Assembly (NCBI GenBank): GCA_018985225.1
Contig: JADGIF010000006.1
Span: 1 to 48,057 of the forward strand
Direction: 5' to 3'
Origin: Amoeboradix gromovi
Taxonomy: Eukaryota > Sanchytriomycota > Sanchytriomycetes > Sanchytriales > Sanchytriaceae
Length of the DNA stretch: 48,057 nt
The translations under genes and the position numbers were made by a program. Shown piece by piece: positions 19,985 to 45,009 of the stretch. The notes beneath the pieces are model-generated. The model had not been told where the DNA came from. It did not search any database and was given only the letters and a program-made list of their open reading frames with translations. Numbering within the stretch: the first letter of the stretch is position 1; each line of letters opens with the position of its first letter.

Positions 19985-20915
19985 TTACTTCTTCCTTAAT
20001 ACCACGGCCATATAGAATGTGCAGACTTCCCACAAATTTGGTCTCATTAACTCATCATCTACACTCTTTTTCATCATTCTTTGAAACAGCTCTTTGGACT
20101 GAACATCTTTTATCCCATCTTTATGCATTTTATCAAAGCTCTTCTTTACGACAAGCTCAAATCCTGCTTCAGTGAAAAGGTTCGTAAATTCCTGCCATGG
20201 CACTACATATTCAGGGCAATCCTTCGTTAGAAATAAATACATCAACTGCATCCTGCAAACTGAAGAAGTATTGTCTGCCAAAGACAGACTTCCATTCTTG
20301 CTCGACTCGGACGCTGTAAACATCATTACCAAAGACTCTACCATTTTCGCGCTGACTCGCATTTTGCAATCTGTTAACTATGACATCTTCATTTGGAATA
20401 GTAGCTATCCAATATCCACCACTCTTCAGTACTTGGGAAACATTGTACAGCGCGTTTTTGACTTTCTGAACATTCTCAAAGGCATAATGAAAGCAAAACT
20501 GGGAACTGACTAGATCAAATTTATTCGTTGTTAATTTAGACCAGTTGTACGCGAAACAATCTAACGCTATAAACTTGGAGTCAAAAGGCATCTTCATTTC
20601 TTTGTATCTGCCTATGTTGTCCTTGACGCTTTCCTCAGCAATGTCTAGTCCCATGTAGTACTTGATATTATGATTAGCAAACTTACGAAGATCGCCACCT
20701 TTTCCGCAACCTAGATCAAGCACAAATGCATCTTTTACGATGAATTTCATTATTAAACAACTTTTAATCCAGTTATTGAATGTTCTCAAATCGTAAGTAT
20801 CAGAATACTTACGCTGGTTTTGAGTTTGCTGTTTATGTTGATTGTAATGACTAGCAACCCTTTTTGCTATTATGTGGGGAGGACTCTGTTTACGTTTATT
20901 GCCTATTGTAGACAT
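19985..20915 (-). CDS. ABD1: mRNA cap guanine-N7 methyltransferase, two exons
   Basis: Exon 1 20915-20241 and exon 2 20221-19985 give 303 residues. It methylates the guanine cap of nuclear mRNA. Seen: YDLRTFNNWIKSCLI, SAM site LDLGCGKGGDL, LDCFAYNW, SSQFCFHYAF, GGYWIATIPNE, and after splicing the family segment DAVDDCPEYVVPW. The two parts sit in different frames; removing a 19-nt intron rejoins them exactly in that conserved segment. Start chosen at MSTIGNKRKQ, as the upstream in-frame ATG adds only hydrophobic residues not expected here. C-terminus EVCTFYMAVVLRKK fits the family end. Confidence 0.93.
20222..20240 (-). other. 19-nt spliceosomal intron in ABD1
   Basis: Sense sequence GTATTTATTTCTAACGAAG. 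Phase 0, between codons for DAVD and DCPE. It contains CTAAC with the adenosine 5 nt from the 3' end. Length is not a multiple of three, so without splicing the reading frame is lost. Confidence 0.85.
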
Positions 20916-20984
20916 ACAAATGGAGCTCAATATGAAGTAGACTTGGAGCAAAGGAGATGCGAAAAGAAAAAGAATCGGAAAAAC

Positions 20985-21210
20985 AGTTCGATTGCTTTCT
21001 TGAATAAATCATTTATCGCGAATTAGTATGCATTTTTGTATAATTTCAAGACTTTTCCAGATTTTTCCAATAGCTTAAATACTCGATATTCTTCCTTTTT
21101 GCAAATGGTAAATCAATTCTAAAGAAATAACTAGCAGGTACAGCATACATTCTTCAACACTGAGGAACTGGTGCAAGCATGGAAGAATTAGATATCTTTC
21201 GACGCCAGGG
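20985..21210 (+). mobile_element. Fanzor family I relic, copy E (left part only)
   Basis: Plus-strand match to the left half of copies B-D (CTTGAATAAATCATTTATCG, TCAAGACTTTTCCAG, CATGGAAGAATTAGATATCT) ending at GACGCCAGG, where the homology stops. The zinc ribbon and the 3' module are absent. Confidence 0.75.
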
Positions 21211-21418
21211 GTTTTATAGCCAACGAGAAATCCATTTAATTTGATTTGGTTTGACCCATCCAATTTTAAATCTCTGTATACATATTAAGATGAACCCATT
21301 ACTGTTATAGAGCAGTTGCCCTAAAGGCTTACATCTTAAAGTTCCGTCCTGTCTTGATTGGATAAATTTTCATTTTGGAGCTGAAACTTCAAAACGCAAC
21401 GTATTCAGAAATTCACAA

Positions 21419-22276
21419 ATGTCGCTGATGGATTTTGGATTACTATGCTCTAAGAGTACTTTACCAGTCTGTCCGCTATATAAACCAGATGTTATCGCTA
21501 ATTGTTATGCTAGGAATGCTGATCTGGGTTCAGTATTGATATTTCAACCTGCTCTTGGAATGGTCTACTTGGGTGCATTGCTGATGGCCTCAATTATGCT
21601 ATATAATATCAAACAAAAATACACAGCAGTGGGTCGCAGGGAAATTAGCTGGTTTATGTATATTTACATTATTACAATCATTTTGGAGGCTCTGGTGAAC
21701 CATGGATTCTTCCCATCCCAAAATATAGTATACCAAATTATCTGCGCTCTTTATATAGGCCATGTTTTAGGACTATTCGGAGTTTTATTTTACAATGGCC
21801 TGGTGCCTCTCCAACTTATAGAAGATGGCACAAATAAAAGCATGATTATATTATGGACCATATATGCTGTATGTGTTGCTCTGGGTGCTGTGGTGGGATT
21901 TATAACATTCAATAGTAACGGTACGATCGTGTTTCTTTTGATTAATTTGGTTCCACTACTGATAGTTGTACTATATTCATGTATCCAAGTATACATAGTT
22001 CTAACTCGTCTTGATAACAAGTGGCCATTGGGTGCTTTAGTATTTGGATTACTATTTTTTGTAATTGCGATTGGATTTTTATTTACTAGTGACTTGGTAT
22101 GTATTCAAGCATCGCATTATTTAGATGGCCTATTCTTTACCGCCTTATTTATGTTGTTAGCTGTCATGATGTTGTACAAGTACTGGGATTCAATAACAAA
22201 GGAGGATTTGGAATTTAGTGTTGGTGGCAATAATAATTGGGAAACAAAAAGATTAATTGACGACTCATATGAGTGA
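21419..22276 (+). CDS. CHS7: Chitin synthase export chaperone Chs7
   Basis: 285 residues, the ER chaperone needed for exit of class IV chitin synthase from the ER. Strong family segments: CPLYKPDVIANCYARN, LIFQPA, KYTAVGRREI, a LVPLQL-type EDGT motif (LVPLQLIEDGTNKS), DNKWPLGALVFGLLFFVIA, HYLDGLFF and the C-terminal MMLYKYWDSITKEDLEFSVG. Seven hydrophobic helices. This protein is confined to fungi, so it fixes the kingdom. It is followed on the same strand by the RasGEF gene after about 70 bp. Confidence 0.95.
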   Translation: MSLMDFGLLCSKSTLPVCPLYKPDVIANCYARNADLGSVLIFQPALGMVYLGALLMASIMLYNIKQKYTAVGRREISWFMYIYIITIILEALVNHGFFPSQNIVYQIICALYIGHVLGLFGVLFYNGLVPLQLIEDGTNKSMIILWTIYAVCVALGAVVGFITFNSNGTIVFLLINLVPLLIVVLYSCIQVYIVLTRLDNKWPLGALVFGLLFFVIAIGFLFTSDLVCIQASHYLDGLFFTALFMLLAVMMLYKYWDSITKEDLEFSVGGNNNWETKRLIDDSYE

Positions 22277-22347
22277 GCATCAAATGAATAAATGATTTTT
22301 AAATTATACCTTTTTTGTGGGTGGCTCAAAGTCTTTTATTCAATCGA

Positions 22348-24807
22348 ATGATGGATATGAATTTGTCACCAGCATCTGTTGATGGAACCTTGTATTTAGC
22401 AAATACAATTTATCCGTACAAAATCAAGACCAAAGACGCGTCAATGGGATTGTATGTAGATGATGAACAAATTATATTAGACGAAAATCAGATGGCAGTT
22501 TTAAAAAGTAATCTAGACTATGCGAGTAAAGCAATACCTTTGACCACAGACGAAAACAAGGATTTCTTTGCTATAAAAAGAAGATTCAAACTCGATGAAA
22601 TGAAGAAATCTAGAAGTACTAATGTGATTGTGGATAAAGCTGTTTCAAAGAAACACGCACCGGAAGATTCCACTATCTTACTGACCTGCTTAAAAGTTCC
22701 TTTTTTAAGTGGTCAGGTCTATCCAGGTACTAGCAAAGGAAAAAGTCCTATACAGTTAGGTTTAAGTCATAATGTTCTGAAATTATATTCTGTAAATGAC
22801 AAATTGCAAGAGCCTTTTGATGCTTATCCTTTATCAAGTAACGTCAGTAGTTTCTTGGATGAAAATAACCCTAATTTTTTTAAAGTGCTGTTTCCAAAAA
22901 TTACACTAATTTTTGAAGCTTTAACATCACATCAGTCTGCGATGTGGGTATCCCTTTTAAACACTTCTTGTCTCTATTTAAATATATTGGAGGAGTCATT
23001 AAACATTGATGTGAATGTACTGGAGAGAACATATAAAAGCACTTTTCCAGACGCTATGCCAGTTACAGAGCTAGATTCAGATAAAGAATTAGAGCTGCTG
23101 AACACTGTACTAAATGATTACAATATTCCTCCGAACTATGAGTCGCATGCTAATCCAGTTGCCTATGATTTTTTCGCCATTCTTCCAAGCCCAAAGAAAG
23201 CAGTTCATTCTCCCGCCGATGCTCCAAAAGAATTAGAAATATTGATGAACTTGCAATCTGACGAATATCTAGCTAATAGGAACAGTGAGAAGAGACTCAG
23301 CAGGCTTACAAGCATGGTTAGTGAAGAGGTTCATAAAAGTGGTTATGGTAGTCTCAGTAGAAATTCCATTGGAATAAGTGGTAACGAATTGAGAAGTGTC
23401 ACAATTGAGGAAGACGCAGCTATAATTACAATGTCAAGACACAAATCAAAGCCGCGGAACATGCAGGAGCTATCGCCAATTTCATTGACAACGGACCCTA
23501 TAGTTGCTGAGCCATCTGAAAATTTTCAAAATGATGAGATATTAAAGATGTTGATGTTGTTTCCAGATCAGAGAATTGTAGAAAATGTAATAACAGAATC
23601 TACACCTCCTGAAGAGCAGAGCAACCAATTACATTCTATTGCCAAAATCGATGACTTCGGAAGACCAACGATTATTTATACGGTTGAGAACTATGAAAGA
23701 GGAATACTGGCTTGTTCTTTAGACGTTTTAATCGATTTATTGGCGAATCAGACTAAGCCGGCAGAGGAATATTGGCTATGGTTAAGTTTTTTAAATACAC
23801 CAGTTTTTACAAGTTGCCTAGTAATTATGAAGAGATTTATAGCTAGAATAAATACAAGTCCTGATGGAACTGAAGAGCAAAAATTTACAATTAGAGTGCG
23901 TCTACTTAGGGCTTTATTCCACTGGTACGAGTGGTTTCCGAACGATTTCAAGAGTGCAGAAATGGATGTACTTTACACGGCATTTTTGAACCTCATTTCG
24001 AAAGTCCGTAATGAGGAAAATAGTAGAAAGTTGAGCAACACCTGTGAAAAACTCTTGTATGTTTTTGAAAATAAAGTACTTTGCAAATTAACTTAGCTGA
24101 CTGTTAGGACTGAGATGAATCATCATAAAGACAGTATAAAGTTACCAGGAACTGAAATATTGCCTCGCGAGTACTCTCCGCAATTGTTTGCTCAAGAATA
24201 TACAAAACTTGACTTTTACTTCTTTTCTCGAATAAGCCCAAAAGAATTTATATATCAATTACATACCAAAGACAGAGAGGCTATAATGCCGCTCATGAAC
24301 GCAATATCTTTTTTCAACAAAATGACACTTTGGTTTGCGAATTGTTATGAAAATGAGATCTCAGATGCAAAATTAATTTACATTGAATGGCTTGTGTTGG
24401 TAGCGAAAGAATTTGAATATTTAAATAACTTCAATGGCTTGATGGCCGCCATACTAGCTTGGAATCAATTAGAAGTGACGGCAACGTCAGAAGAGCTGGG
24501 GCTGGAAATAAAAAGACTGGAGGACCTAATGAGTTTTCACGCAAATTACAAAAATTATAGAACCTCATTGGAGCAAACAAAAACTCCATGTATACCTTTT
24601 TTAGGTTTATTTATTAAGGATTTGTACCTCATAGAAGAGTATAACAGCTCAATGATTGACAACTTAATAAACATCTCAAAACTAAATTTGATAAGTGAGA
24701 GGTGTAGGCGGCTGAAAATATGGCAATCTGTGCCATATAAATTTCACGACAGCAAGGAAGGACTGGAGCTATACAGCTTGTTAGAATCGATGAAAAACAC
24801 AAAATAA
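22348..24807 (+). CDS. Ras guanine nucleotide exchange factor (Cdc25 family), two exons
   Basis: Exons 22348-24075 and 24097-24807 give 812 residues. The C-terminal catalytic RasGEF domain is clear: FYFFSRISPKEFIYQL, AIMPLMNAISFFNKMTLWFA, FEYLNNFNGLMAAILAWNQL, CIPFLGLFIKDLYLIEEYNS. The RasGEF N-terminal domain lies just before the intron (RGILACSLDVLIDLLANQ..). The first 550 residues are low in conserved motifs. A TAG in frame at 24094-24096 separates the two; it is the last triplet of a 21-nt intron whose removal keeps the frame. It would activate a Ras protein at the plasma membrane. Start at MMDMNLSP chosen as first ATG. Confidence 0.88.
24076..24096 (+). other. 21-nt spliceosomal intron in the RasGEF gene
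   Basis: Begins GTACTTTG and ends ATTAACTTAG; phase 0. Its last three bases are an in-frame TAG, so it must be removed or read through for the catalytic domain to be made. TTAAC places an adenosine 5 nt from the end. Confidence 0.75.
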
Positions 24808-24812
24808 ATTTA

Positions 24813-25094
24813 TTATTTCTCTACTAGTTGCTCTTGAACCGTGATATAAAGAAAGCACATGCTGCTAGTACTCATTAAATACATCCACCGTGGCATCATT
24901 GCGTCGCTTTCTGTCTTTTTACTAGTCATGTAGGCTCTGAAATTGAACATCATTGATAAAAGAAGAAAATAAGGTTGTTTCCCAATAATAGAGAGCATAC
25001 TAGCAAAGAGTGAAAGCATAGAGGTCATATCTGGCAATTCTGGACCCTGTTTTAACCTGTAAAATTGTAATGGTGAAAGAGGAGTTTGATTCAT
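24813..25094 (-). CDS. Asterix-like subunit of the ER PAT complex
   Basis: 93 residues with two to three hydrophobic segments. The layout matches the small ER protein Asterix (WDR83OS): a polar N-terminus with RLKQGPELPDMTSMLSLF, helices SMLSIIGKQPYFLLLSMMF, a loop NFRAYMTSKKTESDAMMPRW, and YLMSTSSMCFLYITVQ. Asterix with CCDC47 helps membrane protein insertion. The match is by pattern and length, so moderate. Convergent with the RasGEF gene, 5 bp between stops. Confidence 0.65.
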   Translation of the reverse strand: MNQTPLSPLQFYRLKQGPELPDMTSMLSLFASMLSIIGKQPYFLLLSMMFNFRAYMTSKKTESDAMMPRWMYLMSTSSMCFLYITVQEQLVEK

Positions 25095-25549
25095 GGTGTT
25101 TTAAATCATCTCCAAATAAACGTAAGCTTTCGTCGAATCAAACACTAAATTCTTAAAAAACTAAACATTTTGCAGCCCGCAATAGTGTTTCATGTGTAAC
25201 ATCGGTATTATATTAATTCTAACTTACTACTAGAACCTTTACTAAGAATTCACAATTGGACAAAAACAAGATAATCCGGCTTTCTTGTCTATGAAAAACA
25301 ACTAAAAAGATATAAGTAGAACGTAATGAATCATTTACCAACATACTATGAAGCTAATGTTCGGAATACACTCATCGCTGTTCAATACCGCTTTAGTGTA
25401 GTAATCGTGAGCTGCCATTTGAACTAACAACTAGTGTTGTCATTTTTTTCTATTGAAATTCTTTATTTTCCACCAAATTAGTGGCTGATGAGAAGTCCGT
25501 TGCTAGAGCTGATAAATTTTTGCACTTGTGCCTCCTTTCATAGCTCTGC
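25095..25549. other. Intergenic, no recognisable gene
   Basis: About 450 bp between divergent genes, expected to hold both promoters. AT-rich. No coding frame or tRNA recognised. Confidence 0.4.
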
Positions 25550-26416
25550 ATGCATTGCATGTAAGTGATTTCAATAAGAATCGAAAACTTGAGTTTGAAA
25601 CAAACCATGCCCATTCTTTTTTCAGAATATCGATCTTCAGCCATCGACTCTTTATTTATCTTAATACATGGCGGTGGATATACCTTAGAAACCTGGTACC
25701 CTATGCTTCAATTTATTTCTGTTGATGTACAATACTTACTCGTTGATCTTCGAAACCATGGTAAATCATTCAATGACGACGATTCCAGTTTGGAAAGCAT
25801 GGCTGCAGATATAAAAGATACCTTTGAATTTTACAACCTCGCGGTCAAAAACGTAGTGGTAATTGGTCATTCTTTAGGTGCAGCTCTTGCAATACATCTG
25901 GCAGTTAATAAATTAATTCCAAACATCATAGGGATCGTTGATGTTGACGTCGTAGAAGGATCAGCAATAGCGGCGCTGAAATACATGAAGGACGTGATTC
26001 GAAAACGACCTGAGCAGTTTAGTTCAATAGAGGAAGCCATTAAATGGGCAACTGAGACAAAATACCTATCAGAGAGTGTGGCCGAGTTGTCATTGTCAAA
26101 TCAACTCATTAGGAATGGTGAAAGTTATATATGGAGGACAAATTTATTGAAAACTGAGATTTTTTGGCAAGACTGGTTCAATGATTTGAGTTCCAAATTT
26201 CTGAATTGCAGATGCGGAAAATTGCTAATACTGGCATCTACCAATAGATTAGATACAACTCTGACAATAGCCCAAATGCAAGGCAAATTTCAATTAGAAA
26301 TACTTCCATATGGCCATGCACTTCATGAAGAATCGCCCGAAGCGTTTGCAGCAATACTCGTGCAATTCTATCAAAGGCAATTGCCAATAAAACTACCCCC
26401 AAAGTTTTACAAATAA
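25550..26416 (+). CDS. PPE1: Protein phosphatase 2A methylesterase 1, probable two exons
   Basis: An alpha/beta hydrolase of about 282 residues that removes the C-terminal methyl group of PP2A catalytic subunits. Seen: oxyanion region LIHGGGYTLETW, DLRNHGKSF, nucleophile elbow GHSLGAALA (Ser), the family-typical DVVEGSAIAALKYM, RPEQFSSIEEAIKWATE, and the histidine region LPYGHALHEESPE. If the ATG at 25550 is used, an 18-nt intron at 25561-25578 is removed; otherwise the next ATG in frame is at 25607 and the protein starts MPILFSEY. The first choice keeps an N-terminal strand found in the family. Confidence 0.88.
25561..25578 (+). other. Probable 18-nt intron in PPE1
   Basis: GTAAGTGATTTCAATAAG: canonical GTAAGT donor and an AAG end. 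It holds an in-frame TAA. Removing it joins a 4-codon first exon to the ORF in frame. The TCAAT is a weaker branch match than in the other short introns. Confidence 0.5.
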
Positions 26417-26425
26417 AACTTTTAT

Positions 26426-26590
26426 TTAAATTTGAAAGCCTTTTGATCTTAAACAGGCCTGATGTGCTAGTATTTCGCCGCCACAGCTGTCCTCTCCTTT
26501 CATTAAAACACATTTATCTCGCAAAGTTCTGGTCAGCTTGCATGCGCAACATGGCTTAGCATCGTCATTATTGGAATCTTTAGAGGACAT
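26426..26590 (-). CDS. COX17: Cytochrome c oxidase copper chaperone Cox17
   Basis: 54 residues. Copper-binding CCAC at residues 14-17 and a twin CX9C fold (Cys17/Cys27 and Cys36/Cys46), followed by LRSKGFQI, where the family ends MRALGFKI. It carries copper to Sco1 and Cox11 in the intermembrane space for cytochrome c oxidase assembly. The sequence KPCCACKLTRTLRDKCVLMK is close to animal and fungal Cox17. Stop codons of this gene and PPE1 are 9 bp apart and share the 3' signal AAATAAAACTTTTATTT, which reads as AATAAA-like on both strands. Confidence 0.95.
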   Translation of the reverse strand: MSSKDSNNDDAKPCCACKLTRTLRDKCVLMKGEDSCGGEILAHQACLRSKGFQI

Positions 26591-26724
26591 TTGGAGTTTT
26601 ATAGCAAGGGGTCAATCTTTCATGGAAATAATGTGCATTGCCAATTTTAAACAAAGTGATGCGTTGACCGGAAATGACTTCAACGTATTAAGAATCATGA
26701 GTATAAAAATAAAATGAAATGCTT

Positions 26725-27222
26725 TTATTTTGCAGGAATTTCTATACTACCGTCAGTAATACCATCGCTAACCTCTTTAGGAGACTTGCCATCAACTGTA
26801 CAACCAACGCTGAATGCAGTTCCTAAAATTTCCTTTACATTTCCCTTAAATTCACGAGCATAGCTCTTGTCTCTCATCTCTCTAGCGATATCCATAATTT
26901 TAGATAATGGCACATCTCCATTATGCAATATATTCTTCTCCTTTTTCTTATCACGGGGAGGTTCATTAAGTGCTTTAATAACAAGAGAGCTGGCAGCCGG
27001 TAGTACACTACAAGTAGCTTGTCTATTTTGAATTTTCAACTGAACAGTAACACGTAATCCTTTCCATTGTGCAGTTGATTTTGCGATATCTTCACCAACT
27101 TTCTTAGGTGATAAACCAAGTGGACCAATTTTAGGAGCTAATGCAGATCCACCCGGAACTTCGCCACCAGTGACTCTTAAATTTACATATATAATCTCAG
27201 TTGGATCAAATTTTGGAGGCAT
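26725..27222 (-). CDS. RPL12: 60S ribosomal protein L12 (uL11)
   Basis: 165 residues, the normal length for eukaryotic uL11. It forms the base of the P-stalk at the GTPase centre of the large subunit. [20 protein letters not shown], the [19 protein letters not shown] region and the C-terminal [17 protein letters not shown] are textbook family segments. No intron. Followed by an AAAATAAAAG 3' signal. Confidence 0.97.
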
Positions 27223-27526
27223 TTCTCAACCTAACGGTCTAGAGCTCGCATGATATATACACGTGTTATGTCCAATCAAACAGCTTTCCCCTTGCAACTA
27301 ATACCTTGTGCATTAATTTAATGATAATTATAGCCGAAAGCAAGCAAAAGGTCAAGTGAACTGTTTCTTTGTCGCGCCTCTTATTGTTTGCTTTAAACTT
27401 AGTGCCGCAGATATCCTGAAATATGTTCATATGTTCACTATGTTTCAAATTTTTAATGTGTCTGGATTTAGCAACATGCTACGCAATTAGAGATGTGTAT
27501 ATAAGAACTTCAGAATCCGATTGCAG
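27223..27526. other. Intergenic, divergent promoter region
   Basis: About 300 bp between RPL12 and a small plus-strand ORF. TATATACA near 27255 and TATATAAG near 27500 may be core promoter elements for the two directions. No convincing gene; a minus-strand open stretch (27266-27448) lacks recognisable content. Confidence 0.3.
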
Positions 27527-27772
27527 ATGATCCCGAACCACATTAAAGCCGTTCAACAATCAATGTCTAAGCTGAAAAATGAAAATATCGAATTGCGGAA
27601 AAAAGCTTTAATAATGACTACCCTTGACAGAATGATGCTGGAACATCCGGTACAATATTGTAAGGCCATTTATACCAAGAATTATAAGAATATACTTTGT
27701 AAGATGATTAAATGCGGAGTCGCAAGTGAAAAATCAATATTGCACGATAAAGTAGTAAATCTTATTCTGTAG
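27527..27772 (+). CDS. Small helical protein, member 1 of a local family
   Basis: 81 residues from ATG 27527. Charged and probably all-helical, with LRKKALIMTTLDRMMLEHPV and AIYTKNYKNILCKMIKCG. The TLDRM..EHP block recurs in the ORF at 30602 (KTLDRMSSEHPE). No known domain recognised. TATATAAG lies about 27 bp upstream, which supports expression. Confidence 0.5.
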   Translation: MIPNHIKAVQQSMSKLKNENIELRKKALIMTTLDRMMLEHPVQYCKAIYTKNYKNILCKMIKCGVASEKSILHDKVVNLIL

Positions 27773-27864
27773 TAACGTCAATACAGTTTTAGGATATTTT
27801 AGAATATCAATTTTGTTATTTTGTCTTTTTTATTCGTGTAAAATTATTTTAGGGGATAAAACAG

Positions 27865-28935
27865 ATGATTAAAACGGTCCCAACTTCCAACTCTCTAGGT
27901 GTGCTTCAATTGTTTGTAAAAGAGGGCGGCTCTAGAAACCTAAAGCCAGGCGTTTCTTCAATGCTAGGATATTTTGGATACAGCGGAAATGAAAACTTAA
28001 CACAATTAAAAATTGCCAGAGAGGCAGAATTGCGCGGTGTAGCATTCTCTTATACAGTTGAACGTGACTACTTAGCGTTTAAAGCGCAGTTTTTAAAAAC
28101 AGAATTATCGTTTGTAATGGATGTTTTTAAAAATTTACAAAATGTTGAGTATGTTGAATACAAGTACAAAGATATCAAGATCAAAGCTGAAAATGAATCT
28201 TGGGGTGCCTTTAGTACAAAGAATACCTTTGTCGAAGAATATTTGCATCTGCTGTCATTTCGTGGACAACCTCTAGGGGAAAGCATTTATCCAAAGTCCC
28301 CAGTTTCTCTATCCGACATTAAATCTGCCGCGTCCAGTGTTTTTAGAAACTCTCAGATTTTAGGTATTGGATTCGAAAAGAGTGAATTAGAGAAATTTGA
28401 ATTGTCTTTAGGAAAAGCAAAACCATCTGAAATAGCTAAATTTGTAGGTGGTGAGACAGTGATTCATAAACCGTTTGCTAGTACCGTTGCAATTGCCATC
28501 CCTATAAGCAATTCCGCAGATGCTGATGCTTTAAGAAATAGCTTGGGTGATACCACTCCGAGAGTCAAGTATGGTAACTCCGCTAGCTTAATGAGCAGAT
28601 CAGCTCCTAAAGATGTTTTAATTACTACTAAAGCCTGTCACCACGAAAATTCTCCATCTTTACTTCAATTTGCCATAACTGCAAATACCGCAGACCAGTT
28701 TAAAGCGAGCTACATCGCAATTCAAGAGGCTCTTGGGAATGTCAAAGAATCCCTACCTGTTTTGCCTAATGATACAGCAAATGGCAAGTTGAAAGAGTTA
28801 ATTAACGAGGAATTAGGCCTTAAACTGGGGAAAGGAAATGTTGTAAAAGGTGCAAAAGAAGCACTGGCAAATATTAAATCCCTTAAGAGCATTGTGTATG
28901 TAGGAGACGTTAATCATATTCCCAAATTTCAATAA
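27865..28935 (+). CDS. QCR2: Cytochrome bc1 complex core protein 2
   Basis: 356 residues of the M16 peptidase fold without the zinc HxxEH motif, hence a core subunit of complex III rather than a processing peptidase. Seen: LFVKEGGSRNLKPGVSSML, REAELRGVAFSYTVERDYL, ENTFVEEYLHLLSFRGQPLG, the glycine-linker region and a second M16 half (GNSASLMSRSAPKD..). Shorter than yeast Qcr2 N-terminal presequence would suggest; ATG 27865 leaves only about 10 residues before the fold. Convergent with OST4; stops 32 bp apart. Confidence 0.9.
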   Translation: MIKTVPTSNSLGVLQLFVKEGGSRNLKPGVSSMLGYFGYSGNENLTQLKIAREAELRGVAFSYTVERDYLAFKAQFLKTELSFVMDVFKNLQNVEYVEYKYKDIKIKAENESWGAFSTKNTFVEEYLHLLSFRGQPLGESIYPKSPVSLSDIKSAASSVFRNSQILGIGFEKSELEKFELSLGKAKPSEIAKFVGGETVIHKPFASTVAIAIPISNSADADALRNSLGDTTPRVKYGNSASLMSRSAPKDVLITTKACHHENSPSLLQFAITANTADQFKASYIAIQEALGNVKESLPVLPNDTANGKLKELINEELGLKLGKGNVVKGAKEALANIKSLKSIVYVGDVNHIPKFQ

Positions 28936-28967
28936 ATTGCCTATTAAACATAGTTATAATTATTTAT

Positions 28968-29935: not shown

Positions 29936-30505
29936 TCCTCCTCCTTAAAAGTCCAGATTTCCGAGAAAATCGAGAAATTCCACAGAAAAACTAGCAATGC
30001 TAGATCTCAGTTACAGTGATTGCTCACGCTTTCACTACCCTGAGGCGGGATTGAATAAGGATGCATATACTTGATGTATATGTTCCTTGCTGCCATATGA
30101 TCTCTATCTACCTTCAAATGACACTTTGTACAGGTTCAGGTTTCTAAATTAGTTTTCTTTAGAGTACCATACCTCGTACATGGCATCGAATTTGTTCCTT
30201 GGTGCCATGTGGTCCATGTCCACTTCCAAACCACACTATGTACATGAGTAGCTCTCCAAATTGGTTTTCTTTAGAGTTCCACATACTGTACATGGCATCG
30301 AATTTCCGTGTTTGGACCAGCTTATCAGTCTGAGACGAATCTATGCTGTACCTATTAGTTATTTATTTAAAATTGATTTACCGTTTGCGAAGAGGAAGAA
30401 TATCTAGTGTTTAAGCCATTAGAAAAATCTGGAAAAGTCTTGAAATGATACAAAAATATATACAAATTCGCGATAAATGATTTATTCAAGAAAATAGTCA
30501 AGCTG
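29936..30505 (-). mobile_element. Fanzor family I relic, copy C, with duplicated zinc-ribbon/RuvC-III
   Basis: Minus strand. It has the same tandem cassette arrangement as copy B (two runs related to CTxCG..LE..CTxCHLxxDxDHMAxRNI), the left module near 30505 and the right module ending near 29936. The first zinc ribbon is shortened by a deletion that joins GCATCGAATT to the left module, so B and C share one ancestor with the duplication. Confidence 0.8.
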
Positions 30506-30601
30506 TCACGATATCATGAATCTATCAATTTTCTATCAGCCAATCAACTGTCTCATCATTTCTGTTTTCAAGAGCACCTCCTTGAAAATCTCAATTTGGA
30601 A

Positions 30602-31529: not shown

Positions 31530-31755
31530 TTTCAATTTTTTGATCAGTTCTTCTTTAATAAAATCGCAATATGATTGATTGGACTAGAATTTTAAACTTG
31601 TACCAATTGGTCGGTGTTGAAATTAATTAAAAAGAACCCTGAAAAATCAATTAATTTAGCTACGAGTTAAATGGAATAAGCCGTTTTATTGTTGTATTCG
31701 CTGTATCGCTCCATATTAGTTCTAAATTAATTGTTAAAAGAGACCCAATACAAGA

Positions 31756-32314
31756 CTTCTCGTTAAAAGTCCTGATTTCCGAGAGAATCGAGAATTTCCA
31801 CAAAGAACTAGCAGTGCCAGATGCTCCGTTACAGTGATCGCTCACGCTTTCACTACCCTGAGGCGGGATTGAATAAGGATGCAGATACTTGTATATGTTC
31901 CTTGCTGCCGTATGGTCTCTATCTATCTTCAAATGACAATTGGTATAGGTTTAGATTTCTAAGTTGGTTTTCTTTATAGTACCACACCTTGTACATGTCT
32001 GACTAGTAAATGCTTCATTACATTCAAACATTGTCTTTCCTCTTTGTTTACACTTGAACTTCAAGCGTTCTTTGAATAAATTGTGCAGATATCTTTTTTC
32101 TAGCCTCGAAAGACATCTAATTCTTCCATGTTTTGACTAGTTCCTCAGTGTTGACGAATGTATGCTGCACCTGCTAGTTGTTTCTTTAGAATTGATTTAC
32201 TACTTGTGAAAAGGAAAAACATCGAGTATTTAGGCTGTTGGAAAAGTCTTGAAATTATACAAAAATGCATACAAATTCGCGATAAATGATTTATTCAAGA
32301 AAACAATCGAGCTG
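31756..32314 (-). mobile_element. Fanzor family I relic, copy D (best preserved)
   Basis: Minus strand from 32314 to 31756. Left module, then one reading frame with LFKERLKFKCKQRGKTMFEC, NEAFTSQTCTRCGTIKK, a TAA, TYTNCHLKIDRDHTAARNI, YKYLHPYSIPP, and then the non-coding 3' module. The TSQTC..CG...C..C zinc ribbon followed by DRDHTAARNI is the C-terminal signature of TnpB/Fanzor nucleases (RuvC-III aspartate). The ORF lacks everything before KFKCKQRGK. Right end CAGGACTTTTAACGAGAAG. Confidence 0.85.
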
Positions 32315-32876
32315 CTCCGAAAATAGAGAAGCAAGATGGGTTTTGCGTCTATTCCTATGGGCTTTGATAGCAACTACAAGAAAATGCTCCTGGTACACGT
32401 ATGTCAGATACGGGTTTTAAGAGCAAGAAGGATATTGCTGCATTAAAAAACTCGGGTTTTACGCGGTAACCGATCTCGCTTAGTTGCTATCTGAGCAACG
32501 TTTTATTAATCAATAAACATGTACCAGGGGTCTGAGCATTAATTGTGAACGTACTTGCCGAATAATGCAGCGGCTGTCTTGACTTATAAACGATTCCTGA
32601 GTATGTGATTACAAAATTGACCAACAGTGAACATTAAATGTGTGATACTTTGAAAAATAAACAATTTGGAGACATCAAACACAGACTGTAATTGAAAGCA
32701 AACAGCGACCGTATGACAGTAATCAACATATTTTATGCATGCTTATTAAACCCCGTATTGGGATGGCAAATCTTATACTACTGCATTTCTCAGAAGAAAT
32801 TATTGTTTTTTGGAAAACTAGGACTTTTACACCGTTGAAGATTTAAAATGTATTTAATTTATTTTAAATTATAAAT
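32315..32876. other. Intergenic with two interleaved inverted-repeat pairs
   Basis: About 560 bp. GATAGCAACT (about 32369-32378) pairs with AGTTGCTATC (about 32480-32489), and GCTCCTGGTACA (about 32387-32398) pairs with TGTACCAGGGG (about 32520-32530). The order A-B-A'-B' is that of a pseudoknot if transcribed. No ORF. Confidence 0.4.
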
Positions 32877-36068: not shown

Positions 36069-36088
36069 ATGATAAGCCACACATTGAA

Positions 36089-36769: not shown

Positions 36770-37256
36770 TGGGACATCAAATATAAAAACTGGGCTAACT
36801 TTCTGTAACAGCTTTGAACATTATTTCGGCTTTATTAATTTTATGGATTTAAGAGGCGAGTGGGACATTCAGCTAGTTGCGGAGTTGACGAGTATAAAAG
36901 GAAAATAAATATTCTGTACAGCTATTCTCTTACTCTTTCATCCAATCTTTATTTCAAATAAAATATCACTACTACTCTGTAAAAACTAGAATAGATAAGA
37001 GTAATGATGTTAGTATAACATTACAAAATGACTCTAGAAAAGAGTACCGTCTAAGAAAATGCACCTTTTGCTTAGATGCTCCAAGACCTCATATATTTGA
37101 ACGAGATGCAGGGTCTTCTAGTTTTATTTTAAAAAGAGGAATACAATTAATGAGAGAATCTTGGCATAATAGAAGATCTTTTATTAATGATAGCATTTCC
37201 TCCGTATGGTGCACCTCTAAAAACGAGTTAGTCTAGTTTTTATATTTGGTGTCCCA
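36770..37256 (+). mobile_element. Fanzor family II element, copy 2 (non-autonomous, inverted ends)
   Basis: About 485 bp with inverted ends TGGGACATCAAATATAAAAA and ..TTTTTATATTTGGTGTCCCA. Core-promoter-like TATAAAAGG at 36893-36901. The ORF remnant reads EYRLRKCTFCLDAPRPHIF, ERDAGSSSFILKRGIQ, then stops at TAG before the right end. ERDAGSSSFIL aligns with the RuvC-III aspartate motif of Fanzor1. About ten amino acid changes against copy 1 but only a few silent ones, so the fragment is not under selection as a protein. Confidence 0.68.
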
Positions 37257-37606
37257 TCAATCAAGAGAAAGCGTAAATTCAAGAAGATTGAAATACTGCA
37301 ATTGTTTTCACCAAGACCGCAGATATACCACTCAGGCGAATATTTTAAACGGTAACTACCAAAGTTGTCTACACTTTGGAATTGCGAGTTCTGAATTCTT
37401 ACAGGTCTTCCCATTTAATTTGGCTTTACTATTACCGTAAAAGAAAAAGAGTTCGATTAACTCTGCAAACCTATCACGAGCATTGACTCCGGGTTATAGC
37501 TCGGGTAAACTTCGCAAAGTTTCTATCACTGAATTTTGATGGCTCAGAGCGTGGATCATCAATCTCCTGAAAAATGAAACTGAGCTTGTGAAACAAGTTT
37601 TTTTGA
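37257..37606. other. Intergenic, promoter side of cytochrome c
   Basis: About 350 bp. The first part has worn open stretches without known content, perhaps an older element. The second is the upstream region of CYC1. A TGATGG..CTGA pair near 37541-37570 is reminiscent of C/D boxes but weak. Confidence 0.35.
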
Positions 37607-37962
37607 ATGGGAGATTCAACGAAAGGCGCAAAGTTATTTAAAACCAGATGTGCACAATGCCATACAGTTGAGAAAGGTGGACCACATAAAGTGGGACCAA
37701 ATCTGCATGGGTTATTTGGGAGAGTGGCAGGAACTACCGAAGGATGTAAATTTAATTATTAATATAGACGGGTATACAGCAGCAAATAAGAACAGTGCAG
37801 TAGAATGGGGAGAGAAGACATTGTTTGATTATTTAGAGAATCCTAAAAAATATATTCCAGGAACCAAAATGGTATTTTAAAGTAATTTAGGCGTTTGCTG
37901 GGTTAAAGAAAGCATCTGATCGTGAGGACCTTATTGAGTATTTGAAAGAAAGCACCGCTTAA
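37607..37962 (+). CDS. CYC1: Cytochrome c, three exons
   Basis: Exons 37607-37745, 37768-37871 and 37891-37962 give 104 residues, the usual length. It carries electrons from complex III to complex IV. Heme motif CAQCH at residues 15-19, [34 protein letters not shown], the axial ligand Met81 in [18 protein letters not shown], and the end [14 protein letters not shown]. Without splicing the frame is broken twice. The introns, 22 and 19 nt, restore it exactly at conserved positions, the second directly after the axial methionine codon. Start at [11 protein letters not shown] fits the family. TAA is followed by AATAATAAAT. Confidence 0.96.
37746..37767 (+). other. 22-nt spliceosomal intron 1 of CYC1
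   Basis: Begins GTAAATTT and ends TATTAATATAG. Phase 1, within the codon for Tyr of EGYGY. The adenosine of TTAAT is 5 nt from the end. Its removal shifts the frame by one, as needed. Confidence 0.92.
37872..37890 (+). other. 19-nt spliceosomal intron 2 of CYC1
   Basis: GTATTTTAAAGTAATTTAG, phase 0, after the codon of Met81. GTAAT places an adenosine 5 nt from the end. It contains an in-frame stop and is not a multiple of three. Confidence 0.92.
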
Positions 37963-38158
37963 ATAATAAATTATTTGTAGTGAACACATTCAGCCCAATT
38001 GCAAATTGCTAAGAGATCACTACAAAGTTTCTCGCTCGGATTATCAAAAAGCTGAGCGTTTTCTATTGAAGCTGTGGCTTAAACACCACTTAAAAAGTCT
38101 AATAGTTTGAATGGTATATACGGCCGTTTAGATTCATTTAATTTCAATTTATTTGATT

Positions 38159-39505
38159 TCATTCATCATAATCCCAATACTTAACCATTCTATCAAATCC
38201 ACCAGTATATAACTTGTTTTTCCAGTCTGCACAAGTAATCTTTCCATCATGGGCTTCTTGTGAGAACTCTAGATTCCAATCATTTTCACTCCATATTTTT
38301 ACGGTTTGATCAAATGATACCGTCAACAATGCATTTGGATTTCTTAGCTCCTGAGTATGTAGCTGCATATGTGATATGTTTTGCGAGTGAGCTGGAATTT
38401 CATAAAATTGCTTTAATTGTCGAATATCGTATAATCTTACCACTCGGTCTTCTCCTGCTGTAAACAACCAAAATCCATTTGGATGCCATAAACTGGTTAA
38501 TATCCCACCTCGATCATCGTTTAATAAGCTAATGCTTCTTCCTGTTCTCAAATCCCATATTCTTCCAATTCCACCCAAATCACCGCTATATAGAAGAGAT
38601 TCATCGGGGTGCCCACTTACAGTATATACTTCTCTATCGTGCCCTGACTGCTCATATATGCATTTCATGCTATTTGAGTCCCACACTTTTACAAGTTGAT
38701 CAAAACCACAAGTTATAAAAGTACTGGAATTCAAATGAATTAATTTATTGCATCTTGAAGAATGCGCCTCTAGTTTTGCTAAAGGATCATCTGATTCAAC
38801 ATTATACATGTAGACAATGCCATCATTCCCACAACTTGAAAAATGAGAAACCGAATCGTCCAACAAAGCATATGGATTCCAGTTTACAGAGGCAATACGT
38901 CCTTGGTGTTCACTGGACTCATATATTCCTATTAGCTCATCATTTCTCAGAGTAGAAAGTATCAGTTTACCACCCATATCACCTACAACAATTTTGGACT
39001 CATCTTGCCCACTAACTTGCAAAGCAGTAATTGGTCTAGAAGTTATCGCTGACGATGAGATAGGGAGCATCTTTTTGTACTTCTCTTGGTATTTCTTTTG
39101 ATTATCTTTCCAAACAGAAAGTGGAGTTTGGCTTAACTCCTGTAAATATTCGAGCCTTTTAGAAGCTAGTTGGAGCGACTTAGTAGCTAAATTCCTTCTA
39201 AACATTAGCAAGTGTTTAGATCCGACACTCCAGTATTCTTCGTTGTCATCCGTATCGTTTTTATTTTTATTTTCAAGAATATATTCTACAGTGAAAGGTA
39301 AATTGTTCTTTTTTCTTTGATATAATACTTGTCTCAATTGTTCTTTTCTCTTCTCGGGAGAACTAAGTGGTACCTCCCTCAGTACATCTAGCACTTTTAT
39401 CACGATTTTATCATCATTTGGAACTATAATGCTCCGCAGTATAATTCTCTCTTCTAACTCTTTCTTTTTTAAAGCTGCTCTTTCCGCTAACGTACCTGTG
39501 GACAT
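38159..39505 (-). CDS. PRP4: U4/U6 snRNP protein Prp4 (WD40)
   Basis: 448 residues from ATG 39505 (MSTGTLAERAALKKKELEER). The N-terminal SFM/PRP4 motif is visible in VLREVPLSSPEKRKEQLRQV, then a helical linker and seven WD40 repeats (GHDREVYTVSGHP.. GRIWDLRTGRS, AGEDRVVRLYDIR, GGFDRMVKYWDYDE). Prp4 is part of the U4/U6.U5 tri-snRNP, so it acts in removing the very introns described here. Upstream codons in frame to 39595 are hydrophobic and not family-like. Confidence 0.92.
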   Translation of the reverse strand: MSTGTLAERAALKKKELEERIILRSIIVPNDDKIVIKVLDVLREVPLSSPEKRKEQLRQVLYQRKKNNLPFTVEYILENKNKNDTDDNEEYWSVGSKHLLMFRRNLATKSLQLASKRLEYLQELSQTPLSVWKDNQKKYQEKYKKMLPISSSAITSRPITALQVSGQDESKIVVGDMGGKLILSTLRNDELIGIYESSEHQGRIASVNWNPYALLDDSVSHFSSCGNDGIVYMYNVESDDPLAKLEAHSSRCNKLIHLNSSTFITCGFDQLVKVWDSNSMKCIYEQSGHDREVYTVSGHPDESLLYSGDLGGIGRIWDLRTGRSISLLNDDRGGILTSLWHPNGFWLFTAGEDRVVRLYDIRQLKQFYEIPAHSQNISHMQLHTQELRNPNALLTVSFDQTVKIWSENDWNLEFSQEAHDGKITCADWKNKLYTGGFDRMVKYWDYDE

Positions 39506-40323
39506 TCTCTGTAAAAAGTAGAGTTGGAATGGAAGGGGTGACAAAAAGAAAGAAAAATATCGAAATATAACTAAACTACTGGAAAAGCCCACCAAAAAGC
39601 ACCCAAAACAACAGTTTTTAGGTTAAACCAAATTTTTACGGTAACAACAGCAAGCTCGACTATGGATCGGTTTACACAGCTTTTGATGGAAAGATATTGG
39701 CAAATATTATGAAATACGATACTAAAGGAACAGCACAAGAAAAATATAAGCATGGTTATTATGGCAATGGTAAGCACAGCAGATAAGGCGATTCAGGTAA
39801 ATCAAACAAGATGTTGGTGATTTCACTTGTTAGAAAGACACTTCTTTTGCTTATTGCTGAGTTTGGAACCAAAGAAAAAGAAGTGGTAACAAGAAATTAC
39901 CACCTAAACTCTAAGCGATACATGTAGAACTTTTTAACTGAATGTTGCATTTGATATATGAGACCCATTCTGACAAAATATCCTCATTATCCAAGTAGGA
40001 GAAAAGCCTAGAAACTACACTAGGAATCAGACATCTTCATGTCATCAGATGCGAAAATTTGTTAGGAATAAGAAGGTATGAACTATGAAGATGATAGACG
40101 AAAGAAAGAGATTCAGATGCTGCCTAGTTTGTGAGCAAATCAGGATTACCAACACCAAGACAGAATATGTAATGGTTATCGGTTGAGATGTTGCAACATA
40201 TGCTCAATTTTTTGTTTATCGTCCCCTTTGAGAACTGACCAATCAGCGTCCCATGATTTTTTTCTACTTATAAAACGGTCCCATTTCATTGGAAAGTGGG
40301 CGTTGAATTTTGAATTCTGAATC
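39506..40323. other. Intergenic with a third Fanzor1-type relic
   Basis: On the plus strand (about 39744-39880) one frame reads YKHGYYGNGKHSR-stop-GDSGKSN.. followed by ISLVRKTLLLLIAEFGTKE. This lines up with YYGDGSYTHNRRG..IYSLGRRTLVLMIPEFRTSK of family II copy 3. About 40090-40130 reads ERKRFRCCLVCEQ, similar to the RLRKCTFCLD of copies 1 and 2. Stops and frameshifts elsewhere. So a decayed Fanzor1-type gene probably lay here; no inverted ends seen. The last ~100 bp are the MOT1 promoter. Confidence 0.5.
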
Positions 40324-43300
40324 ATGTCAAAACTCGTGAAACTATTTGGTATTTTGCAATCAAATCAGCCACTTTCTAATAAAATGCTGGCGAGTGACCA
40401 AATAAGTAAAAGTGTGCAAAACCAATATCACTCGATTGGTCAGATTTTGTTACAGTTGAGCGCCTGTTTATTACATGAGCAAAGTGAGTGCAGATATGTG
40501 AGCGAACTGACTTTAGAAAAGATTGTACAGATATGCTACGATCATGAAAAGCATCTAGAGAGAAACATAATTGGGGACAATGAAAAGTATGATGTGCTGG
40601 ACTACTTGGAGATATCAGAACCATTATTAGGCCAGCCAGACCATTTCGCGGAGAATGAGCATGACAATGATGAAATGACTTCCCCATTGACTGGTTCAAG
40701 TGATATGGAGCTTATTAATCTCAGTGCAAGGGAAAGAAACAAATTGAAAAGAAAGTTGAAGCAGAAAACGCCACCTGCGTCTGCATTTCCTAGTCATACA
40801 AATGATTCCAAAGACTCAAACACTCTTGTTTTTCAGGCTAAAAAGACTACACAAGCAGATCCTTTGTTGGGAATTTCCAAATGGGGCTTAGAGCAACTCT
40901 TCAGATACCTATTGGCTAACGTTAATAGTCCTTATTGGTTTGTACGTCATGGTGCTCTGGTAGGTATTCGGAACATACAAAGAGTCGACTTTCAATGGAC
41001 CCAAGAGGAGTTGCAACATACAATGACAAAGGTCTTCAATGTATTATTGAATGATAAGTTTACCGATTTTGTTGGTGACCACATTGTATGTCCTGTTCGC
41101 GAGGCTTGTGCTCAAGTATTTGGTGCTTGCTGTCAGTTTGCCAAAGATGATTTGTTACAGGTCGCTACAAACTGCGCTTTGAAGATGGTTAACGGCGACT
41201 ATCATAGTAGCGCTACAAACGAGACTAAAAAGAAGCGCAAAATTGTTGATAAGGTATCGTGGGATAGCAAACATGCTGGTTTACTCTCTATTCAATACAT
41301 TCTAGTAACAAGACAAGACAAATGGATGACTCTCTGGTCAAGTTGTGGCCCTGTCGTCTTGAAAGGCTTAGAAGATGTGGATGACGATGTCCGTAGTATT
41401 GCGGCTCAAGCATTGTGCCCAATAATTAAAAAATTAAAGTTTGATTTTGAATTAGACATTATGCAATTACTGCACTTGTTATGGGAAGCCTTATTAGATT
41501 TGGATGATTTATCAGCTAGCACTGCATCTATCATGGAGTTACTAAGCACATTGATGGAGTTGAATCAAGTGCAGGAATATTACAAAGAAAACCCCAAGCA
41601 GTTACAAGCCGTTTTACCGCGTATACTGCAGTTCTTTCGTCATGCACTGTACTCTGTCAGGTTAGCTACATTAAGAGTTATTCACAGTTTGAATAATGTT
41701 GATGAATGGGTATCAATTGATTTCATAAACCGCGTTTTTTATAATTTTATTTTAGAGGACAAAACTGAACTTTTGGACATTAATCTGCAGACATGGAATA
41801 GCATGGTTGATCTCTATCCAGATGTCAATAAATACATTCCATTTTGGTTCCAATTAGCGTTTCATCCTATTGGAATCCCATTCGAGAGTAGATTATTAAA
41901 TATTTCAATTTCTTCCATTGATACACCCATGGCTCATCAAGATCTCGGTCTAGTTGATATGGATGTATTTATACACAACCGGCTTATAATTTGTCAGGCC
42001 TTAGCTCATATTTATAATAAAAGTCCGAATTTCAACTTTATCTACCCTTATCTTCATTCCAATGTAGCTATCCAATGCCAATATAGTTGTTATCTTTTAT
42101 CTCTAATGTCCAACTACTCTAAATGGTGCCCTGACGACTTAGTGACACATTTGTTATCTTTGCTGTCTAATGATCACTCTATGTATGAAGAAGTCGAAAA
42201 AGTAACAAGTCGAGTGTTCAATATTGCCGGCAAGTTATTTACTGAATTAGATTTGCAATCCTCCGAAGATTTAAATATTAAATCACCAACAATCCCTCAA
42301 CTGTTAAATCTTTATCCTAGCCTCCCTGATGTTCCACTTGTTAATAACCTAAAAAATGAGTTGGCTTTATTTGATTTAACTGTCAATATCTACAGAATCC
42401 GATGTCATTCCATGATTGCTAATATTTTAATCAACATGCAATATGTGCCTGAAAAGAAGTCTCTGTTGATTAAATCACTTATGAATTCTGTTAAATTTGA
42501 AGAGAACTTGGATCTTCAGACTATAAGTTGTTCTTCGTTGATATCTCTTATCAAACTGATTAAGTCTACAAATCCAAATATTGTGGATAAAATTCTGCTA
42601 AACACATGCGCATTTAGTTGCAGCGATCCTTCTATAACTCTTCTACTCAAAGAGTACGCTGATAATGAAGATATTCATGCTTTTAATATGATTTTAAAGG
42701 AGGATCTGAGCAATAAGAAGCAAAAATCAGAATTCCAGGAATTTAACGTTACCAAGGTTGAAACAATAACTCGCGGTAGCACACGGGTGTTTGAATTGCT
42801 CTTCAAGTCTTTTAAACTGGATGATTTTCCCGTTTTAATACAGCAAATGGAAATTATTGAAAACACCAACATTAATCAATCCACCCTGGATGCTTTTCAA
42901 ATAATTTCAACTATTTGTCCATTTTCAAACTCTCCATTTTTCTTGGATATTTTGCCGCGTTTTATCAAGTTTGTCGGCCACACTAACACTGCTGTTCGCA
43001 ACATGGCTGCCAAATGCATTGCCATGGTTTGTAAATACAACACTACAAAGTGCATGTTGTTTATTAATAGTTCTATCCTTGATCTAATTTCTAGCACAGA
43101 CACTTGCACTCGTTGTGGAGTTATTGAACTAATCCACTATTTAATCACCTTGCTAAACGATGATTTAATTCCTTTCGTTTTGCTGTTTATTTTGCCAGTG
43201 ATGGGTCGTATGAGCGATTTTAATGATTCAATACGTAAAATGAGTTCCACTTGCTTTGCGTCTCTTATTAAACTTGTTCCTCTCGATGATAGTGATGATA

Positions 43301-45009
43301 ATGATATACCCGCCCTTTTATCTGATTCGATTTCAAAGCAACGTGATTTCTTGGATCAGCTATTGGACTCGAGTAAAATAAAGCCATATAATCTACCAAT
43401 CGTCATCAATGCTACCCTGAGACATTATCAGCAAGAGGGTTTGAACTGGCTCTACTTTCTTAATAAGTATAACCTCCATGGGATACTCAGCGATGACATG
43501 GGTTTGGGTAAGACATTGCAGTGTATATGTATAATGAGCAGTGATTTACATGATAAAAGTGCAAATGCAAACAGCGAGAATACCAGTACTGCTGATAAAG
43601 CTGTTTTGAATCTTATTGTATGCCCTTCTACGGTTGTTGGCCATTGGAATCATGAGATCTTGGAGTACTCCACCAATCTTAAACCTCTTTTATACACTGG
43701 CTTACCCTCGGAACGCACAAAGCTGAGGAGTAAATTCCATAATTACAATACACTAATTACCAGCTATGAGATTATAAGAAATGACATCGAGCATTTGAAT
43801 ATGAACTTCAATTACTGCATTTTAGACGAGGGCCACGTTATAAGAAACAGCAAAACAAAAATCACCAAGGCTTGTAAGCTAATTAAAGCTAACCATCGTT
43901 TAATTTTAAGCGGCACGCCTATACAGAATCAGATACAAGAATTATGGAGTCTATTTGACTTTTTAATGCCAGGATTCCTCGGAAGTGAAGCGCAATTTAA
44001 TAGCAGATACAACAACAACAATTTAGAGCTACTGCACAAGCAGATACTGCCATTCCTTCTGCGACGATTGAAGGAAGACGTGTTACAGGATTTGCCTCCT
44101 AAAATCATCCAGGATCATTACTGCACGTTATCTCCAGTTCAGTCATTATTGTACACTCAATATGGTACAAACAATAAGAACAATCTAGAACCGCGACACG
44201 TATTTAGTAGTTTGCAATATCTTAGAAAGTTATGCAGTCACCCGTTGCTAGTTATGTCTAGCGAGCAACAAAAACAGTACGAAGTGGAGCACAGTTGCAA
44301 TCTGCGCGACTTGGAACATGCTCCGAAGCTATTAGCATTACAAGACTTGCTTATTCAATGCGGAATTAATAACGATGATCAGGTAAGTGGCCATAGAGTG
44401 CTGATATTCTGTCAACTGAAGAAAATGATCGAAATAATAGAGCATGACCTGTTTGCTACCAAAATGCCGTATGTTAATTTTAGAAGATTAGACGGGGATG
44501 TGGCATTGAATAAACGACATGACGTAGTAGTGGAATTCAACAGTGATCCGAGTATAGATGTGCTGCTGTTAACCACCAAAATAGGTGGATTGGGGTTGAA
44601 CTTAACTGGGGCAGATACTGTGATATTTGTAGAGTCAGACTGGAACCCAATGCAAGACCTGTAACTCAATGGCTAACTTAGGCAGGCTATGGACAGAGCT
44701 CATAGGCTAGGGCAAACTAAAGTAGTCAACGTCTACAGACTAATAACAAATGGGACATTAGAAGAGAAGATAATGAATGTGCAACGATTTAAGATGAATA
44801 TGGCGAATGAGATTGTAAATCAACAAAATGGAGGACTCGGTAGTATGGATACAGAGCAGTTGTTAGATTTGTTCGAAATAAGTGCGCCTAAAAAGACTGC
44901 GAAAAAGCAAACTGGGGCACCCGGCATATTGCATGACTTGGGAGAATTGTATGACGATGATGAATTCAACGAGGGTGTTGGAGAGTACATGGACAAAATG
45001 AATAAATAA
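40324..45009 (+). CDS. MOT1: Mot1/BTAF1, SNF2-family TBP-removing ATPase, two exons
   Basis: Exons 40324-44660 and 44682-45009 give 1554 residues. Mot1 pulls TBP off DNA. The first ~1000 residues are HEAT-like helices (start [39 protein letters not shown]). The ATPase follows: DDMGLGKT near 1060, [52 protein letters not shown], and [17 protein letters not shown]. The last two are separated by a TAA until a 21-nt intron is removed, which gives [19 protein letters not shown] as in the family. Shorter than yeast Mot1 (1867). Confidence 0.95.
44661..44681 (+). other. 21-nt spliceosomal intron in MOT1
   Basis: Begins GTAACTCAAT and ends GCTAACTTAG, phase 2. It carries an in-frame TAA, so it must be removed for the last helicase motif (VI) to be made. 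CTAAC puts an adenosine 5 nt from the end. Confidence 0.92.

Follow-up and report, generated by a model that had tools for sequence, protein, structure and literature searches.

Probable spliceosomal introns of 19 to 22 nucleotides with a nearly invariant branch-acceptor end in the fungus Amoeboradix gromovi

Four genes in a stretch of 48,057 nucleotides (nt) from Amoeboradix gromovi (contig JADGIF010000006.1, here called the window; coordinates refer to its full length) are interrupted by five segments of 19 to 22 nt that have the features of very small spliceosomal introns. The ABD1 gene, encoding the mRNA cap guanine-N7 methyltransferase, lies on the minus strand at 19985..20915, with exons at 20915-20241 and 20221-19985 and a 19-nt intron (GTATTTATTTCTAACGAAG) at 20222..20240 on the same strand. 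The other three genes are on the plus strand. A CDC25-like RasGEF gene at 22348..24807 has exons at 22348-24075 and 24097-24807, separated by a 21-nt intron (GTACTTTGCAAATTAACTTAG) at 24076..24096. The cytochrome c gene, encoding 104 residues at 37607..37962, has three exons (37607-37745, 37768-37871 and 37891-37962) and two introns, the first of 22 nt (GTAAATTTAATTATTAATATAG) at 37746..37767 and the second of 19 nt (GTATTTTAAAGTAATTTAG) at 37872..37890. A MOT1/BTAF1-like helicase of 1554 residues is encoded at 40324..45009 in exons 40324-44660 and 44682-45009, with a 21-nt intron (GTAACTCAATGGCTAACTTAG) at 44661..44681.

An earlier sequence-only reading had placed the five introns at these positions, and all five are confirmed there, each with a GTA start and a TAAY-NN-AG end. 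Its claim that removal repairs the genes exactly also holds, since the spliced ABD1, RasGEF, cytochrome c and MOT1 frames each run open from ATG to one stop. If cytochrome c is left unspliced, its frame breaks within intron 1. In three of the four genes the spliced protein can be aligned across the junctions without a gap. Cytochrome c (phmmer, E 1.2e-46) has no gap against PDB cytochromes at either of its junctions; the MOT1 junction is continuous with the solved Mot1-like helicase 7z7n (E 5.7e-60 for the last 174 residues); and spliced ABD1 (PF03291, E 6.9e-83) is continuous with four relatives, P0001, P0002, P0004 and P0005, of 65-80% identity. For RasGEF the junction is supported by the frames that it links, open over 591 and 236 codons, and by the flanking domains, RasGEF_N (PF00618, weak, E 6e-4) on the upstream side and RasGEF (PF00617, E 3e-30) on the downstream side. 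The unspliced open reading frame of ABD1 in the window (P0003) enters the intron and then stops; gene calling that is blind to such short introns thus breaks genes.

The introns checked individually number 24 and come from the window, from the genes for SF1 and clathrin heavy chain, and from protein kinase loci. The kinase set was taken from 90 Pkinase matches and consists of ten genes with pieces in different frames, three with a stop inside a strong match, and two added loci (C19 and C14) where a pattern match adjoins a kinase match and the homology is mainly one-sided; C345, a weak match with a stop, was left out. Each of the 15 loci becomes intact once one or two stretches of 19-22 nt are removed, 17 introns altogether, 11 loci having been repaired by script and four by eye from the frames. 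At three loci the script also printed longer or shorter alternatives, which fit the kinase sequence more poorly. C296 and C77 each have a second intron that accounts for the remaining stops, and none of the ten genes with pieces in different frames needs a longer intron for its repair. Several junctions interrupt or adjoin the kinase motifs HRD, DFG and APE. One further intron, in the gene for clathrin heavy chain, is confirmed by repair of frame and homology. The SF1 intron, 19 nt long (L025:1373-1391, minus strand), is inside the KH domain; once it is removed, the protein aligns at this junction without gaps to both human SF1 and yeast BBP. An intron in the KH domain of SF1, which is itself the branch-site reader, would allow self-regulation.

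Although all 24 introns share the same plan, their positions differ in how strictly they are kept. Thirteen are 19 nt long, five 20, four 21 and two 22. At the donor, G1 and T2 are invariant, A3 occurs in 23 and T6 in 21, while position +5 is T in 17, A in five and C in two. G is never found there, and it occurs at +5 only once among 35 GTAA-type matches of 19-21 nt, so the strict GTAAGT-like donor of Microsporidia is absent. At the 3' end, T-8, A-6, Y-5 and G-1 are invariant, A-2 is present in 23, T-3 in 22 and A-7 in 20. The branch box, TAAY in 20 introns, TTAY in three and TGAY in one, is a motif with which the GUAGUA of U2 can pair. The TAAY-NN-AG end had been described as fixed; in its exact form it occurs in only 19 introns, the departures being three TTAY, one TGAT and one GG acceptor, and the strictly fixed part is T-8, A-6 and Y-5. 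All the departures are among the kinase introns, 12 of 17 of which are canonical: TTAY is found in C86 and in the second introns of C296 and C77, and TGAT in C358. The near-overlap of 5' site and branch site that had been suggested is borne out, the distance from G1 to the branch A being 14-17 nt in every intron. GT is present in 24 introns and AG in 23, and removal restores the protein in the window genes, SF1, clathrin and all 15 kinase loci, as is expected of U2-type introns. U12-type introns carry the donor RTATCC and the branch sequence TCCTTRAC; both are absent from all 24, and this type was rejected. The weak or absent branch consensus reported for Stentor and Bigelowiella natans is not seen in the 24 either. 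Genome-wide matches and homology both speak strongly for minimal spliceosomal introns that form a class of their own, marked by a branch-acceptor end that hardly varies.

The chance of finding such segments was assessed by frame repair in the window and 20 stretches of the same assembly (L005-L024), 248,057 bases in total; the 20 stretches are long contigs with kinase matches and hence a non-random sample. A match was a GTA..TAAYNNAG segment of 10-80 nt joining otherwise broken frames, with 60 codons open before it and 30 after. There are 18 such matches, 12 of them at 19-21 nt, which represent 11 distinct introns, since one in L009 is counted in two frames. Seven control motifs with a wrong donor, branch or acceptor give no frame repair at 19-21 nt under this rule. 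Branch-to-AG spacings of 0, 1, 3 and 4 were rejected as well: by the criterion used for the main count they give no frame repair at 19-22 nt, and their raw counts scatter too widely to add to this. When the rule is relaxed to 30 codons on either side, the control motifs and spacings give at most one match per length at 19-21 nt. At 19-22 nt TTAY gives no frame repair and TCAY one in the 248 kb, yet three TTAY introns are recognized through kinase homology.

The whole assembly that was searched (6,779,989 bases in 366 contigs) holds 163 matches to GTATTTN{3,33}TAAYNTAG and 86 to the backward control. Among the first 100 listed of the 163, 48 are 19 nt long, 17 are 20 and eight are 21, 73 in all. 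The pattern GTAAN{5,35}TAACNTAG has 167 matches, and among the first 100 listed of these, 35 are 19-21 nt long. Both patterns allowed 31 lengths, and equal use of these would put about ten in 100 at 19-21 nt; against this admittedly crude null the peaks have p values of about 1e-51 for the GTATTT pattern and 6e-12 for the GTAA pattern. The base table of the GTAA matches covers 71 of the 100 listed sequences (49 short and 22 long), the 29 omitted ones including copies of a 29-nt repeat. The genome-wide length histogram called for earlier thus peaks, for the listed matches, at 19 nt. The size class, first given as 18-22 nt, has to be corrected to 19-22 nt with a mode of 19, matches of 18 nt numbering one and three in the two lists of 100. 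In the 248 kb, 14 introns are recognized: 11 by frame repair, the one in ABD1 and the two in cytochrome c. Extrapolated roughly, this would put the genome total at about 400, a figure with a wide error that comes from non-random stretches and excludes TTAY and TGAY variants; the raw motif excess in the 248 kb gives a similar but noisy estimate. The genome therefore looks intron-poor, as far as such counts can tell.

Several repeats were seen in passing. Eight listed places (C49, C94, C111 twice, C118, C147, C204 and C210) contain GTAATTTGAGAGCTTCACATTTAACGTAG, which is 29 nt long, or a close variant of it, probably as part of a repeat element. In the window, dispersed and partly inverted repeat copies, 62-94% alike, lie at 15880-16506, 20979-21208, 29996-30506 and 31893-32325, and the stretches at 6301-6669 and 36863-37240 are duplicates with 91-97% identity.

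The host is a fungus, because Chs7, a fungal chitin synthase export chaperone, is present (window 21419-22276, E 7.8e-73), and because the organism-naming entries among the 120 listed matches of the SF1 search are fungi. In the clathrin and ABD1 trees the proteins lie on a long, fully supported branch together with EukProt and ENA sequences, and the trees do not settle its position among the fungi. A search for the ADP/ATP translocase, a marker of rozellids and Microsporidia, gave no match, but neither did its control. Some relatives are continuous at the points where the introns are found here: three ENA relatives (P0001, P0002 and P0004) in ABD1, P0241 in SF1 and P0122 in clathrin. If these proteins were predicted by a program that takes no account of introns, the genes of the relatives would lack them, which tentatively suggests recent gain or loss; such searches favor unbroken proteins.

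The sequence-only reading had singled out the U1 and U2 small nuclear RNAs (snRNAs) and the branch-site proteins SF1 and U2AF for inspection. The assembly encodes U2, SF1 and a U2AF65-like protein, and also U6 and U1-70K; U1 RNA and U1C are considered below. U2 (102 bits) and U6 (65 bits) have intact GUAGUA and ACAGAGA motifs. In the Infernal alignment, the sole U2 gene found (L003:1501-1695) has a single extra nucleotide after GAUCAA and before UGUAGUA, where the Rfam consensus is capitalized as conserved. Contamination was rejected as the source of this contig, since its codon-use correlation of 0.886 is inside the range of the other loci (0.69-0.97). SF1 gives a weak match to the SF1-HH domain. 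In the SF1 of this genome and of the relative P0241, F replaces the tryptophan of RRSRW or a similar sequence that is present in all five other fungi compared; this residue, the ULM Trp, presumably binds U2AF65. The alignment also shows both proteins to be without the SPSP linker and to have one zinc knuckle fewer. The U2AF65-like protein reaches 167 bits, short of the cut-off of 310, and has one clear RRM in Pfam; U2AF65 provides its best PDB matches, and its C-terminal part matches weakly too.

Some observations weigh against reading these segments as a uniform class of spliceosomal introns. The motif alone is unspecific, as GTA..TAAYNNAG is expected about 5.4 times per length by chance in 248 kb. 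Its raw excess of 14 at 18-22 nt is not far above that of TTAY (10.4) or a spacing of 6 (9.9), with other motifs going down to -13.6; the TAG-ending part of the same motif gives +12.6 at these lengths. The 167 matches to the GTAA pattern are fewer than the 389 to its backward control, so that only the length peak counts for this pattern. A generic test for GT-AG segments that ignores the branch motif finds no excess over decoys at 25-120 nt, nor a clear excess at 17-24 nt, where it gives 27 matches and the five decoy pairs 17-31. Since this test lacks power, longer introns with other signals are compatible with the data, and the kinase loci are the better evidence. One C77 intron starts with GTT, and the intron of C57 ends in TAAC-TT-GG. 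Because the C57 kinase (L034) combines this GG acceptor with a TGA at a conserved tryptophan, it is perhaps a pseudogene. U1 RNA was not found by profile, 41 of 79 candidates having been scored, and the match to U1C is below the cut-off only. With these points weighed, we are confident that the segments are genuine spliceosomal introns of the U2 type and that the fungus has a compact nuclear genome with few introns, those that are detectable having shrunk to 19-22 nt with a mode of 19.

An intron of this kind consists of a short donor, GTA followed by a T-rich stretch, and a fused 3' module, T-A-A-Y-N-N-A-G, whose second position is sometimes T or G and whose branch A is at -6. The TAAY box would be read by SF1 and then by U2. 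The AG two bases downstream would be taken by proximity, as the distance leaves no space for a polypyrimidine tract. The donor would be chosen mainly through its GU, pairing with U6 and distance; because the +5 G is missing, pairing with U1 is likely to be weak. The lariat, with a loop of about 14 nt, would form as usual.

Whether the spliceosome itself has changed is a separate matter. An adaptation to the tiny spacing is plausible, and the U2 insertion and the SF1 changes would fit it. A more specific version, to which we give rather low credence, is that intron recognition has been rebuilt round the single fused branch-acceptor module: U1-donor pairing would be largely abandoned, SF1 would work without docking its tryptophan on U2AF65, and the extra U2 nucleotide, between the U6-pairing segment and the branch box, would give slack for the helices of 5' site and branch to form together at a distance of 14-17 nt, much less than the roughly 50 nt of human spliceosomes. 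Slightly short of even chances goes to the view that the introns are real and tiny but handled by a spliceosome with no special adaptation, so that only the adaptation is disputed. The strict 3' end would then be a convergence of intron-poor genomes, whose species have strong branch sites and a constrained branch-to-AG distance in the survey by Irimia and Roy (PMC2483917). The present genome, with an estimated 400 or so introns, looks intron-poor too, and the core motifs of U2 and U6 are canonical. However, the same survey describes intron-poor species as usually having strong donors, and the +5 G is missing here in all 24 introns. In human in vitro splicing, a test intron with 46 nt between 5' site and branch was not spliced and the B complex was estimated to need about 52 nt or more (PMC6692369), as against 14-17 nt here. 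The inserted base beside the branch-pairing box of U2 and the lost features of SF1 likewise speak against an unmodified machinery.

That the introns are often retained as switches, with unspliced RNA giving truncated proteins, seems improbable. Truncation would follow because TAAYNTAG has stops in two frames, and SF1, the branch-site reader, has such an intron in its KH domain, but several introns are in housekeeping genes such as cytochrome c, from which they would need to be removed efficiently. Removal by something other than a spliceosome, either programmed DNA elimination or a tRNA-type splicing enzyme, is suggested by a length far under the usual spliceosomal limits; it is very hard to reconcile with the near-constant GT and AG, a branch-like box at one fixed place, the presence of the motif on the coding strand and the spliceosome parts in the same assembly, and we consider it most improbable. 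Assembly errors, or pseudogenes with short insertions, deserve almost no credence, even though there is one assembly of 366 contigs and one case in 24 (C57) looks degenerate, for a common donor and branch box, with a mode of 19 nt, at 73 of 100 listed matches to one pattern is not what errors would produce, and errors would not fall precisely where the two undamaged parts of cytochrome c, MOT1, SF1 and kinase motifs meet.

Uniform tiny introns are already known from heterotrichs, mikrocytids and a nucleomorph, and each system has its own distinctive features. The introns of Stentor coeruleus and other heterotrichs are likewise tiny, uniform GT-AG introns, of 15-16 nt, with the branch A mostly at position 10 of 15 (90.9% of Stentor introns) or 11 of 16 (5.0%), which is -6 as in the fungus; U2 GUAGUA and U6 ACAGAGA are kept in both (PMC9505925, PMC9942806). 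However, these accounts give Stentor no strong branch consensus, in contrast to TAAY in 20 of 24 here, and Stentor is a ciliate with thousands of introns, while the present organism is a fungus with some hundreds, of 19-22 nt. Mikrocytids, an unrelated lineage in Rhizaria, also have a small genome and introns that number a few hundred (M. mackini has 224) and share one narrow length and a conserved sequence, but these are 16-17 nt long and the spliceosome is strongly reduced (PMC10245619), whereas the present genome retains cytochrome c, SF1 and a U2AF65-like protein. The nucleomorph of Bigelowiella natans resembles the fungus in its introns of 18-21 nt and its U6 ACAGAGA, and differs in that its introns lack any evident motif at branch or donor and number about three per kb of coding sequence (PMC6461891), as opposed to few introns with a near-invariant branch module. 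Encephalitozoon cuniculi, a microsporidian and thus a fungal relative with a compact genome, shares the small number of introns and the TAAY branch motif, but its introns are 22-76 nt long with a strict GTAAGT-like donor (PMC3629993, PMC2483917), and those of the fungus are 19-22 nt without a +5 G. The karyorelict ciliate Loxodes has introns of similar length (mean 19.3, mode 17 nt) with a wider spread (PMC11441545).

No fungal introns this short were found in the parts of the open-license full-text literature covered, the nearest being those of E. cuniculi, from 22 nt. The novelty lies in the host, a fungus, and in how rigid the branch-acceptor module is. The 50-species survey of Irimia and Roy sets short-intron genomes without a branch signal against intron-poor genomes with strict signals and longer introns (PMC2483917). 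This fungus joins the two trends reported there as opposed, very short introns and strict 3' ends. It combines short length and a strict 3' end with a weak donor, and mikrocytids, whose introns are called highly conserved (PMC10245619), may do likewise. The branch A at -6 both in Stentor and in this fungus may reflect one physical limit, common to the two, on the distance from branch to acceptor. The introns provide a natural test of minimal intron size, and, since the host is a fungus, they bring the question of how a spliceosome handles introns below its own footprint near to yeast, where swaps of snRNAs and proteins are routine.

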